From Lachnospiraceae bacterium FE2018 (lineage in GTDB: Bacteria; Bacillota; Clostridia; Lachnospirales; Lachnospiraceae), in NCBI GenBank assembly GCA_000702845.1, contig JNKK01000006.1:62001-126000 (forward strand): a stretch of 64,000 nucleotides of DNA. The letters are read 5' to 3'. The position numbers and the translations under genes are program-made. Within the stretch, counting starts at the first letter, position 1. Every line of letters begins with the position of its first letter. The notes below the pieces were generated by a model. It did not search any database. It saw only the letters and a program-made list of their open reading frames with translations, and was not told the origin of the DNA. This document shows, one piece after another, positions 47,352 through 51,325 of the stretch.

Positions 47352-47375
47352 GTTAAGTGATAAGTCCAGTCTCAG

Positions 47376-47417
47376 AAAAGGAGCAGCTGCACACATGTGT
47401 GCAAAGCTGCTCCTTTT
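47376..47417. terminator. Strong terminator of the lemA-DUF2207 operon
   Basis: Outer stem AAAAGGAGCAGCT with AGCTGCTCCTTTT, inner stem GCACACA/TGTGTGC. Near-perfect over about 40 bp. Confidence 0.9.
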
Positions 47418-47567
47418 CATGAGACGACAACAGGAATGAGCATGTAGGGGCAAGGCCCGGAATGCGAATGCCTGAAACACGGCGGGAGTGTGAAGCACGA
47501 AGCCGTGTGGGACTTATCACATGAAAAGGGGAGCTTGCGGACGCGGTGCGCGCGCGATTCCTATTCT
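47418..47567. other. Non-coding GC-rich stretch before the repeats
   Basis: Open frames here are shadows without ribosome sites. One hairpin (CACGGC ... GCCGTG) and the GC run GTGCGCGCGCGATTC are visible, nothing else I can name. It starts right after a terminator, so any RNA from here would need its own promoter, which I did not find. Confidence 0.4.
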
Positions 47568-47593: not shown

Positions 47594-47628
47594 GTTGGAT
47601 TGGCGGAAGGAACCAAACCAAAAAAAGT

Positions 47629-47751
47629 GCATCCGCAAAGGTATTGACTGTCGGGATGCGGATGAGAAAAATCCAGAGTCTCAGGCCGGCCGAAGGAACC
47701 AAACCAGGAAAAGTGCATCCGCAAAGGTATTGACTGTCGGGATGCGGATGC
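47629..47751 (+). repeat. Hairpin repeat array, upstream block (2 units, 86-bp period)
   Basis: GCATCCGCA starts at 47629 and 47715 (86 bp apart), each followed after 19 nt by TGCGGATG(C) (47657, 47743), forming 8-9 bp stems with nearly identical loops. The intervening and flanking sequence (AATCCAGAGTCTCAGGCCGG, GAAGGAACCAAACCA) is also repeated, and a half spacer precedes unit one. Same family as the six-unit array at 50275-50739 on the other side of htpG. Confidence 0.9.
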
Positions 47752-47796
47752 GCAAAATCGAAAGTCTCAGGCCGGCGGAAGGAAATAAAATCATCT

Positions 47797-48006: not shown

Positions 48007-50202
48007 ATGGAACTGCAGCGTGGGAATCTTTCAATTAACAGTGAAAATATATTTCCGATTATTAAAAAGTGGATGTATTCGGATCAGGACATTTTCGTAC
48101 GTGAGATGATTTCGAATGCATGTGATGCGATTACGAAGCGCAGAAAGCTGGATGCGATTGGCGAGAAGCATCTGCCGGATGATTACAAAGCGGCGATTCA
48201 CGTGATCGTGGATGATAAGGCGAAGACGCTGACATTTGTTGACAACGGACTTGGCATGACCGCTGAGGAAGTACAGAAGGACATCACAGACATCGCATTT
48301 TCCGGTGCAACGGAGTTCCTGGAGAAGTATAAGGATAAGGCAGATCAGGATCAGATCATCGGGCATTTTGGTCTCGGATTCTACTCTGCGTTCATGGTTG
48401 CAGATCAGGTCGATATTGACACGCTTTCTTTCCAGGACGGCGCAGAGGCGGTTCACTGGGAGTGTGACGGCAGCACAGAGTATGCCATGGGAAGCGGCAG
48501 CTGGGAAGAAGTTGGTACGATGGTAACCCTGCACCTGAACGAGGACTGCCTGGAGTATGCCAACGAGTACCGCGTGCGCAGCATTCTGGAAAAGTACTGT
48601 GCATTTATGCCATACGAAATCTTCCTGACGAAGGCAAATGCCGAGCCTGAGTACGAGACAGTTGACGAAGCGGATCTGCGTGAGGATGACGAGATCGTTG
48701 AGCGGATCACTGTTCCGGCAAAGACAGAAGAAAAGGAAAATGAGGACGGCACAAAGGAGACGGTTGAGACAGAGCCGGAAAAGAAACAGGCGAAAATCAA
48801 AAAGCGTCCGGTTCCGGTCAATGACATTCATCCGCTCTGGGCGAAGCAGCCGTCGGAATGTACGGATGAGGAATACAAAGAGTTCTACCGGCATGTATTC
48901 CTTGATTATAAGGAGCCGCTGTTCTGGATTCATCTGAACATGGACTATCCGTTCAATCTGAAGGGAATTCTGTACTTCCCGCGGATTAACATGGAATACG
49001 AATCCATCGAAGGAACCATTAAGCTGTATAACAATCAGGTGTTCATCGCCGATAATATTAAAGAAGTGATACCTGAATACCTGCTGCTTCTGAAGGGTGT
49101 CATTGACTGCCCGGATCTCCCGCTGAATGTCTCCAGAAGCGCGCTGCAGAACGACGGATTTGTCCAGAAAATTTCGAATTATATTTCTAAGAAGGTTGCA
49201 GACAAACTGTCCGGTCTCTGCAAGACGGACCGTGAGAACTATGAGAAATACTGGGATGATATCAGTCCGTTCATCAAATTCGGATGCATCCGCGATGAGA
49301 AATTTGCGGAGCGTATGGCAGATTATATTCTGTACAAGGATCTTGATGATAAATACATGACGCTGAAGGATTACATTGCCGCGAATGTGAAAAAAGAGGA
49401 TGCGGCAGAAGACACAGCAGCCGGCGAAGGTGCCGACGCTGATGCAGGTACCGGCGAAGGTGCTGCTGTCGATGAGGACGGAAATGTGGTCGAGGCGGAA
49501 GTTGTAGATAATGGTGCAGCTGCCCGGACAGATGCTGATTCAGCCGGGACAGATACTTCAGATACTGATGCCGCAGATGCTGATGCGGAGGATGCTGAAA
49601 AAGAGCCGGAAAAGACAACAATTTATTATGTAACAGATCCGGTGCAGCAGAGCCAGTACATTAATCTGTTCCGTGCACAGGACATGAATGCAGTAGTTCT
49701 TGTTCAAAACATTGACAGCGCATTCATCACACATATGGAGCGCACGGATGAGACGGTTCACTTCCAGCGCATTGATGCCGATCTGACAGAAGAGATGAAA
49801 GAAGACGGTGCTTCACTTGAGGAAGAGCAGACTGCACTGGAAGGGCTGTTCCGCAAGGTTCTGTCAAATGACCAGCTGACTGTTAAGGTTGAGACAATCA
49901 AAGATGAAGCAGTCTCCGCCATGGTAACACTTTCTGAAGAAGGCCGCCGCATGAATGAAATGATGCGGATGTATGGTATGGGAAGCGATTCCATGTACGG
50001 CGTCGACGCAACACTGATTCTTAACGCAAAGCATCCGCTGGTGCAGTATGTCTATGAGAATCGTGAAGAGGAAGAAAAGGTGAAGCCATTCTGCGAGCAG
50101 CTCTATGACCTCGCAATGCTGGCAAACCGTCCGCTTGCGCCGGAAGAAATGACGCGGTTTATGGCACGCAGCAACGAACTGATGCTGCGGCTGACGAAAT
50201 GA
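48007..50202 (+). CDS. htpG: HtpG (Hsp90) chaperone with acidic insertions
   Basis: 731 residues, about 100 longer than usual bacterial HtpG. The N-terminal GHKL ATPase is intact (REMISNACDAITKRR, DNGLGM, GHFGLGFYSAFMVAD). An acidic linker joins N and middle domains (about 238-265, EEKENEDGTKETVETEPEKK), more like eukaryotic Hsp90. A second insertion of about 75 Ala/Asp/Glu/Gly/Thr residues (about 461-538, GEGADADAGTGEG...) is in the middle-to-C-terminal part, before KTTIYYVTDPVQQSQYINLF. The C-terminal dimer domain is present. It is bracketed by hairpin repeats on both sides. Confidence 0.96.
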   Translation: MELQRGNLSINSENIFPIIKKWMYSDQDIFVREMISNACDAITKRRKLDAIGEKHLPDDYKAAIHVIVDDKAKTLTFVDNGLGMTAEEVQKDITDIAFSGATEFLEKYKDKADQDQIIGHFGLGFYSAFMVADQVDIDTLSFQDGAEAVHWECDGSTEYAMGSGSWEEVGTMVTLHLNEDCLEYANEYRVRSILEKYCAFMPYEIFLTKANAEPEYETVDEADLREDDEIVERITVPAKTEEKENEDGTKETVETEPEKKQAKIKKRPVPVNDIHPLWAKQPSECTDEEYKEFYRHVFLDYKEPLFWIHLNMDYPFNLKGILYFPRINMEYESIEGTIKLYNNQVFIADNIKEVIPEYLLLLKGVIDCPDLPLNVSRSALQNDGFVQKISNYISKKVADKLSGLCKTDRENYEKYWDDISPFIKFGCIRDEKFAERMADYILYKDLDDKYMTLKDYIAANVKKEDAAEDTAAGEGADADAGTGEGAAVDEDGNVVEAEVVDNGAAARTDADSAGTDTSDTDAADADAEDAEKEPEKTTIYYVTDPVQQSQYINLFRAQDMNAVVLVQNIDSAFITHMERTDETVHFQRIDADLTEEMKEDGASLEEEQTALEGLFRKVLSNDQLTVKVETIKDEAVSAMVTLSEEGRRMNEMMRMYGMGSDSMYGVDATLILNAKHPLVQYVYENREEEEKVKPFCEQLYDLAMLANRPLAPEEMTRFMARSNELMLRLTK

Positions 50203-50230
50203 TATAATCTTGCTAATCGGAATTTGCAGG

Positions 50231-50262
50231 GGTCATGCCGGGGCACTGGCATGACCTTTTTT
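50231..50262 (+). terminator. Terminator of htpG
   Basis: GGTCATGCC (50231-50239) with GGCATGACC (50248-50256), then six T residues. Confidence 0.9.
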
Positions 50263-50274
50263 GCGGCATTTTCT

Positions 50275-50739
50275 GTATCCGCAAAGTTGTTGGTTGGCGG
50301 GATGCGGATGCGCAAAATCCAGAGTCAAGAGCTGGCCGAAGGAACCAAAGCAAGAAAAGTGCATCCGCAAAGCAGCTGTCTGGGGGGATGCGGATGCGCA
50401 AATCCGGAGATCCAATCAAGCCAAGGACGTAAGGCAAGAAAAAAGTGCATCCGCAAAGGTACTGCCTGGCGGAATGCGGATGCCCAAAAGCCAAAGTCAA
50501 GACCTGGCCGAAGGAAACAAATCAAGAAAAGTGCATCCGCAAAGGTACTGCCTGGCGGAATGCGGATGCCCAAATCCGGAGAAACAATCAAGCCAAGGAA
50601 GCAAGGCAAGAAAAAAGAGCATCCGCATAGTCAAGAAAGCTGGGATGCGGATGCGCAAAATCCAAGGTCAAGACATGACCGAAGGAAGCAAATCAAGAAA
50701 AGTGCATCCGCATCTCTCCTAAAAAAGAATTGCGGATGC
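50275..50739 (+). repeat. Hairpin repeat array, downstream block (6 units, 86-bp period)
   Basis: The left arm G(C/T)ATCCGCA starts at 50275, 50361, 50447, 50533, 50619 and 50704 (steps 86, 86, 86, 86, 85). The right arm TGCGGATGC starts at 50303, 50389, 50475, 50561, 50646 and 50731. Each unit is a 36-37 nt hairpin with 9-bp stem (one mismatch in the first) plus a 49-nt spacer. Spacers alternate: type one (AAAATCCAGAGTCAAG ... CCGAAGGAACCAA) after units 1, 3, 5; type two (AAATCCGGAG ... AATCAAGCCAAGG) after units 2 and 4. So the real unit is 172 bp. All three plus frames stay open through most of it but give unrelated peptides. Confidence 0.95.
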
Positions 50740-50800
50740 ACAATCAATTCAATCCGGGCAGCGAAGCCAAACCTGGCTGCGAATGATATAATCCCCTTAT

Positions 50801-51325
50801 TCAGATTAGTTCCAGCTGTGTAAGAAAGCGGGAGAGATGCGCATCCCATGCGCGCTCGACCGCTTTTTGCATGTCGAATACCGCCAGTGACGTTCCGCTG
50901 GTGATGAGAAGCCGGCCGTCCTGAAAGCGGCAGTTAAAGTATAGACCATGGACATCCTCCGGCGCCACAGGAAGATTTTCCTGCAGGACCAGTTTTGCCG
51001 CGGCTTTTTCCGGATATTGAAAAACAAAGTGAAACGCCAGCGGTGTATGCCTGCCGCGGATGACAGCAAGGCAGTGTTCTTTCAGATCTGCCCAGCTCGC
51101 AAACTTCGCAGTTGCATTTCCGGAATCTGTGTTCTCACCGCTGTCAGGCGTATTGTCCGCATTGTCGGATCCGTCGCTGAAAAATGCGGGGTGAAGCTTC
51201 CCGTCAATCTGGAAGGTCGCATAGGTGGTGATTGATACTTCCGGAACCAGTAAGCGATCAAAAGCTTCGCTAAGCAGCAGACGGCTCATAAATAATTTAA
51301 CCTGATCAATTTCGAATGCAATCAT
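50801..51325 (-). CDS. DUF5721-like protein
   Basis: 174 residues, soluble, beginning MIAFEIDQVKLFMSRLLLSE with VPEVSITTYATFQIDG, the start I associate with DUF5721 of Lachnospiraceae. A variable Asp/Asn/Ser-rich loop (SDGSDNADNTPDSGENTDSG) interrupts it near residue 50. The rest is alpha/beta with no catalytic motif. Unknown function. It has its own promoter; its 3' end is 60 bp from the hairpin array. Confidence 0.75.
   Translation of the reverse strand: MIAFEIDQVKLFMSRLLLSEAFDRLLVPEVSITTYATFQIDGKLHPAFFSDGSDNADNTPDSGENTDSGNATAKFASWADLKEHCLAVIRGRHTPLAFHFVFQYPEKAAAKLVLQENLPVAPEDVHGLYFNCRFQDGRLLITSGTSLAVFDMQKAVERAWDAHLSRFLTQLELI

Follow-up and report, generated by a model that had tools for sequence, protein, structure and literature searches.

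Here, we present an analysis of the six-hairpin array at positions 50275 to 50739 of the window (the whole 64,000-nucleotide stretch of DNA) and of the repeats that share its plan. The repeat family to which the array belongs is real, genome-wide and apparently selected. We give roughly even credence to reading it as a family of non-coding, REP/BIME-like palindromes kept by a candidate sequence-specific trans factor, with the array as one of its loci. Within the REP-like kind, the best reading of what is new is the strict clock, the one-way order of the units and the species-wide change of the arms.

The repeat unit in the window and in the genome

The left arms of the focal array start at 50275, 50361, 50447, 50533, 50619 and 50704, giving the steps of 86, 86, 86, 86 and 85 bp reported in the preliminary description; the right arms start at 50303, 50389, 50475, 50561, 50646 and 50731. 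All six hairpins are on the forward strand. Hairpin 1 (50275..50311) has the arm GTATCCGCA, a 19-nt loop and the arm TGCGGATGC; hairpins 2 (50361..50397), 3 (50447..50483) and 4 (50533..50569) also have 19-nt loops, while those of hairpins 5 (50619..50654) and 6 (50704..50739) are 18 nt long. As described earlier, the 9-bp stem GCATCCGCA/TGCGGATGC is perfect in five of the six units, and unit 1 differs by a single change. The 85-bp step comes after the 18-nt loop of unit 5.

The spacers of the focal array are of two types, A (spacers 1, 3 and 5) and B (spacers 2 and 4); spacer 1 (50312..50360, forward strand) is 49 nt long and has the GAAAAGT box at its end. The previously noted alternation of the types is real, because over the first 43 nt spacers 1, 3 and 5 are 84-86% alike and spacers 2 and 4 88% alike, compared with 21-37% across types. 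The 172-bp higher-order unit derived from this alternation is complete in the focal array and partial in L022, one of 12 arrays with at least four spacers, in which the last four spacers alternate (98% and 84%); however, it is not general across arrays, the order being A B A B C A in L009, A B A A B A A B in one L081 array and different again in others. As judged from these sequences, the 172-bp unit is a matter of local duplication history.

The array had been placed outside any gene. Its neighbors are htpG (HSP90, PF00183; 48007..50202) upstream on the same forward strand and, downstream, a convergent DUF5721 gene (50801..51325, reverse strand), and we read the stretch between them as non-coding; however, one frame is open, the stops per frame being 0, 1 and 3, and mechanical ORFs of 199 and 153 aa cross the array. 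We rejected protein coding for the arrays because 86 is not divisible by 3 and because the 42 pooled array stretches of the genome (see below) contain 215 stop triplets (51 TAA, 36 TAG and 128 TGA). TGA is below expectation (128 versus 258), TAA and TAG are close to the expected numbers, and five of the 42 stretches, including the focal array, have one stop-free frame. As anticipated, the array matches no named family: an Rfam search of the whole window returned nothing at the gathering level over the focal array, and a permissive search of the array itself gave just two microRNA-precursor matches far under the cut-off.

Three further features lie close to the focal array. Upstream of it, a terminator-like hairpin 3' of htpG (50231..50262, forward strand; GGTCATGCC/GGCATGACC followed by TTTTTT) was read by eye and is absent from the list of the hairpin scan. 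The 12-bp direct repeat AATGATATAATC brackets the array at 50198-50209 and 50782-50793; no target-site duplication recurs among the other arrays, whose matches of at least 9 bp within 200 bp are short or lie in repeat units. A second array of two units (47602..47784, forward strand; hairpins at 47629-47665 and 47715-47751), missed in the preliminary description, is flanked by a Clostridiales-1 RNA and htpG. This RNA (RF01699, 98.9 bits) lies at 47361-47516, with the second array just downstream, and is also visible by eye upstream of htpG in the congener G001.

The preliminary description had raised the prospect that the unit might be confined to this one spot. Instead, the exact hairpin GCATCCGCA-N16-22-TGCGGATGC is present in 120 perfect copies in the 3.2-Mb genome that carries the focal array (G000; L numbers designate fetched loci) and in none in the reversed control, which excludes chance. 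A polar pattern with an AAAAGT box upstream and up to 3 mismatches has 149 matches in G000 and none in the control. Among the matches listed, at least 143 hairpins are read in at least 42 array stretches of 1 to 9 units, counts in which three hairpins identical between contig ends may be counted twice; a contig end is found within 100 bp of 22 of the 42 stretches, so that arrays are often truncated. Because some of these contig-end stretches are two halves of one locus, the separate array loci are fewer than 42 and probably number between 31 and 39.

The consensus unit consists of GAAAAGT, an arm, a 19-nt loop that begins and ends mostly with A, the second arm, ACAAA and an A/G-rich stretch; its fold gives the 9-bp stem only, and the sense strand of the arrays is 36% A. 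Among the matches listed, 94 of 100 adjacent pairs less than 120 bp apart have a spacer of 49 nt (one further pair is separated by 169 bp). Of 142 hairpins among these matches, 119 have a 19-nt loop, 22 an 18-nt loop and one a 17-nt loop, and 115 have two perfect arms. The preliminary description held that arms are kept while loops drift. This is borne out by the identity between loci in 85 units, which is 44% for loops, 43% for spacers and 97.7% for arms, the last biased upward by a hairpin collection that allowed at most 3 arm mismatches; the 7-nt box GAAAAGT reaches 86%. A relation between loops and spacers gave no clear signal (complement, 6.8 for own versus 6.5 for other of 12; direct, 7.9 versus 7.9). 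Because arms and distances are invariant amid drifted loops and spacers, we suggest that a reader of sequence acts at each site.

Inspection by eye revealed similar outer flanks at L012, L013, L017, L022 and L069, 5' GGGTTCTTTAAGTGAGTACG-like and 3' GGTCAAAAAGC...CACCCGAACGCAATTAAAC-like, which suggest that the arrays sit within a larger element with end repeats. A shortened, decayed terminal unit (GCATCC, short loop, GGAYGC-like) is common 3' of the arrays, near the next start codon, and was seen by eye at L015, L024, L068, L069 and L082. At L013:9463-9679, another dispersed repeat lies 5' of the array, with pieces up to 98% alike and many copies in the congeners G001 and G003.

Empty sites and 53-bp arrays in sister species

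G001 and G003 are the closest congeners, with htpG proteins 91-96% identical and DNA 72-84% identical around the L013 sites. The 86-bp array is absent from the htpG-DUF5721 site in G001 to G004, from the two L013 sites in G001 and G003, and from the RF01699-htpG site, which holds the second array of the window, in G001. Other stem-loops are in place at the htpG-DUF5721 site and both L013 sites of G001 and G003 (by eye). One of them, GGAGACAGAGAACCGTCCCCTGTCTCC, occurs at the array-free htpG site of G001 and G003 and at L013 site 1 of G003 (L045, L047 and L085), and among 24 sampled G003 loci, up to 6 share its 14-mers.

A tandem-repeat scan of samples found arrays with a 53-bp period in G001 and G003. 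In small samples of other genomes, a scan for periods of 35-250 bp, counted before any filter, found no array in 122 kb of G002 or 130 kb of G004, one in 184 kb of G006 (terminator-like) and one in 195 kb of G007 (open frame). The array in G006, which belongs to another genus, has an 88-bp period and a terminator-like AAAAAGCTCCGCAGGAGC hairpin and lies near a contig start (L208:17-267). The 53-bp unit consists of GAAAA-N, CGCCAGCC, a 15-nt loop, GGCAGGCG and a spacer of ~22 nt, and its clock is strict (46 units). Its pattern has 18 matches in G003, 10 in G001, 5 in G002 and none in G004 or G000, compared with 2, 2, 4, 1 and 0 in the reversed control. Regular arrays or contig-cut array ends hold all 18 matches in G003 and six of those in G001; we took the rest as chance.

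The two families share sites. At four of the six distinct sites of 53-bp arrays in G001 and G003 (two G003 loci, L171 and L174, were merged into one site by inference), G000 has an 86-bp array. In G003, the 53-bp arrays at these common sites lie between TPR and DUF4125 genes, between hydG-like and hydF-like genes and 3' of a thiM-like gene; G001 has one at the first of these sites and another 3' of a tatD-like gene. Two sites, at tuf and at a malQ-like gene, are unmatched among the fetched G000 loci, which cover part of the genome; the hydG-, hydF-, thiM-, tatD- and malQ-like genes and tuf are named from their translations. Four of six by chance has a probability of ~1e-6, a rough value that assumes ~40 array sites and 2,700 intergenic regions. 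G000 itself has a third arm set, GCATGCC/GGCATGC, with a period of 53, a 15-nt loop and mostly a position after an A-rich box. In terms of sequence, the species have the plan and some of the sites in common but differ in arms and period. Because the arms differ between sister species and are consistent within each genome, we suggest that a reader or copier changes with the arms. A further claim, tentative and well short of probable in our estimate, is that polar tandem hairpin arrays in at least three species of the genus occupy conserved gene-3' junctions, with their code (arms and period) switched genome-wide.

Outside G000, the exact hairpin was found in one of 60 relatives, as one single hairpin in G003. 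The tandem 86-bp pattern is absent from 396 other genomes of the family, and the polar pattern with at most 3 mismatches has a single 3-mismatch match in one of 298 other genomes (G129), which we took as chance; no array was accepted in the other sampled genomes. The lone tandem match in a genome-contig collection, which may leave out G000 and near genomes, was from Planctomycetota and was rejected as chance inside a guaA-like coding sequence (by eye). A plasmid or phage origin found no support in a blastn search with the array, which gave no matches among 72,556 records of plasmids and 50,697 of phages. Among viral contigs, five matches to the hairpin pattern were put down to chance, given their setting and loop lengths, and the 53-bp pattern had none. 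A limited literature search, covering titles and the starts of abstracts, found no description of such arrays.

Direction, placement and arm variants

We set polarity by the GAAAAGT box before the 5' arm and took neighboring genes from a mechanical ORF finder. Among the matches listed, 35 of 143 hairpins have no one-sided tag; of the 108 that carry an exact one, 107 agree in direction with their own array. Array and upstream gene share a strand in 30 of the 31 stretches with a callable gene; of 31 downstream genes, 20 share the strand of the array and 11 are on the opposite one (matches listed in both cases). The exception upstream is L017, which like L065 (counted among the 30) is a single hairpin with polarity unset by a tag; L017 was re-set by eye from the similarity of its flanks to those of L012 and was left out of the unit statistics. 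Both neighbors were called at 20 stretches: 14 are co-directional with the array, 5 are convergent, none is divergent and one is the exception L017, whose neighbors are themselves co-directional, so that 15 of 20 stretches lie between co-directional genes. For the 53-bp arrays, which we oriented by eye according to the A-rich box, 7 of 7 upstream genes and 6 of 7 downstream genes share the strand of the array. Because the 3' side of genes is reported to be a zone in which stem-loops concentrate in many bacteria (PMC1590033), the placement of the arrays alone is ordinary. Based on GC skew, most arrays run with both transcription and replication; L067 and L074 run along their called neighbors and against the local skew, and L083, which also runs against the skew, decides nothing because it lies between convergent genes. 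Replication may contribute to the polarity.

We found 30 arm variants in 142 hairpins (1278 pair cells; matches listed): 1 Watson-Crick compensation, 11 wobbles in the sense RNA, 12 wobbles in the antisense RNA and 6 broken on both strands. One pair that contains a CpG takes 13 of the 30 variants, as transitions on either side; cytosine methylation could explain this. The preliminary description had proposed selection for a stem, an explanation that is not sufficient on its own, given one compensation in 30 variants. Because of this scarcity, and because neither strand is favored for wobbles, it is the arm sequence itself and the distances that are held, to the extent that sequence comparison can tell, rather than pairing ability alone.

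These data bear on the possibility, which we consider doubtful, that the arrays are RNA elements in 3' ends and operons, with sense hairpins that stop 3'-5' decay or recruit an RNA-binding protein under site-by-site selection. The polarity with the upstream gene in both families would fit such a function, as would arrays inside likely operons, such as that of the hydG- and hydF-like genes (named by eye), and arms that differ on both sides between the families. However, the wobbles show no preference for the sense strand (11 versus 12), the stem has an A.A mismatch in 38 of 46 53-bp units, a terminator-like hairpin precedes the focal array, and a decay barrier needs no invariant arm sequence.

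We also compared the tracts that follow the stems. At least 5 T within 8 nt after the stem are found on the antisense strand in 94 of 141 and on the sense strand in 3 of 141 cases in the 86-bp family, and in 30 of 46 versus 0 of 46 in the 53-bp family, counts that partly reflect composition. The opposite strand thus has a GC stem and then a U-rich tract, and the focal array lies directly 3' of the convergent DUF5721 gene, as would be expected of tandem terminators of antisense transcription. Nevertheless, we regard this explanation as very unlikely: the loops are 15-19 nt long with only about four T in a row, the T excess is in part compositional, terminators do not need invariant arms, one compensation was found in 30 variants, and 15 of the 20 sites with two called neighbors are co-directional.

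Finally, each unit could provide two inverted half-sites in an array bound as double-stranded DNA, of the nucleoid or partition type. Half-sites are invariant and their spacing is exact, as this explanation requires, but a strict polarity with transcription would be unexpected, the period differs between species, and neither 86 bp nor the 28-bp distance between arms is a whole number of helical turns. The earlier suggestion that all stems face the same side of the DNA fails on the same arithmetic (86/10.5 = 8.19 turns, a rotation of ~69 degrees per unit); the 53-bp arrays of the relatives correspond to 5.05 turns. We consider a DNA-binding array highly improbable.

Known systems and a candidate reader

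The nearest known systems are REP, BIME and REPIN elements (PMC3733652, PMC3116915, PMC8266576). As characterized in one of these accounts, a REP is a palindrome of 20-40 bp with a stem of 5-13 bp, a loop of 2-20 nt and a GTAG or CGTC tag; REPs are intergenic and high in copy number, lie between co-directional or convergent genes and 3' of coding regions, are often species-specific, and occur singly or clustered, with pairs predominantly head-head (PMC3733652). The earlier label "REP-like" fits the arrays in size (a 37-bp palindrome with a 9-bp stem and a loop of mostly 19 nt), in placement (15 co-directional, 5 convergent and 0 divergent of 20 sites) and in species-specificity. It does not fit the tag, which is GAAAAGT before the 5' arm instead of GTAG or CGTC, or the order of units, which are head to tail instead of in opposite orientation, with 107 of 108 tagged hairpins in the same direction. 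Further differences are the fixed 86- or 53-bp clock and a polarity that follows the upstream gene. A REP tyrosine transposase (RAYT) was also not found in the assembled contigs of G000.

Y1 transposase matches number 5 in G000, 6 in G001, 3 in G003 and none in G002 or G004. In G000, two full Y1 genes score as IS200/IS605 and are under the RAYT cut-off; two of three contig-end fragments match the IS200 model only, below its cut-off, and the third is identical to these in DNA. For all seven typed Y1 genes the best model is IS200/IS605; two of the seven are fragments that score under its cut-off. Array arms are absent from the 14 Y1 loci scanned, of which two were scanned a second time as longer stretches, and typing these genes and scanning the loci for arms yielded no trans factor.

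Y1 genes in the array-bearing congeners and in neither of two others could point to a functionless, selfish miniature element moved by a transposase, the polarity and 3' placement of which would reflect tolerated insertions; however, this association is confounded because the three array-bearing species are also close kin. Copies that are restricted by species and missing from four sites in close relatives, together with a placement like that described for REPs (PMC3733652), speak for such an element. Yet dead copies should decay evenly, while loops and spacers are down to 43-44% identity and the arms and the 49-nt distance are not; moreover, there is no target-site duplication, and 14 of 15 arrays with two same-strand neighbors share their direction, the other being L017, unset by tag. 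Altogether, we find a selfish element unlikely.

Other systems share single features with the arrays. The EFAR repeats of Enterococcus faecalis are modular palindromes that vary in length and insert at stem-loops, and they are not known to keep a strict clock; the likeness is that the array-free sites of the relatives also carry stem-loops (by eye). CRISPR arrays likewise have palindromic units at regular distance, but the spacers here are related repeats (on average 60% alike within loci) in repeated types rather than captured foreign DNA, the arrays are small and number in the dozens, and each unit has two arms. The ends of IS200/IS605 elements are hairpins with a short conserved box at the 5' foot, as in the arrays.

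Returning to a family kept by a trans-acting factor, we propose that a polar unit (box, 9-nt arm, 19-nt loop, 9-nt arm and 49-nt spacer) is copied head to tail behind genes, and that a putative hairpin-binding enzyme or protein recognizes the foot box, the arms and their spacing. This factor would copy or homogenize the units genome-wide and keep arms and distances from drift, and arms and factor would change together between species. The polarity could be kept in that the sense array would not stop transcription, and the reverse strand, with hairpin and U-rich tract, would be terminator-like inside operons. The reader could be a protein that binds RNA, one that binds DNA, or a transposase-like enzyme whose substrate is the single-stranded hairpin.

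REP-like repeats are without settled function. In this family, more than 100 hairpins keep their arms, spacing and direction while the rest drifts, and sister species have different arms at partly the same junctions, a natural experiment in which selfish spread and site-by-site function can be separated. GAAAAGT with the GCATCCGCA hairpin provides a clear bait for the factor that would read the array. If the code switching is true, it would imply an undescribed trans-acting recognition system that co-evolves with a hundred-odd sites.
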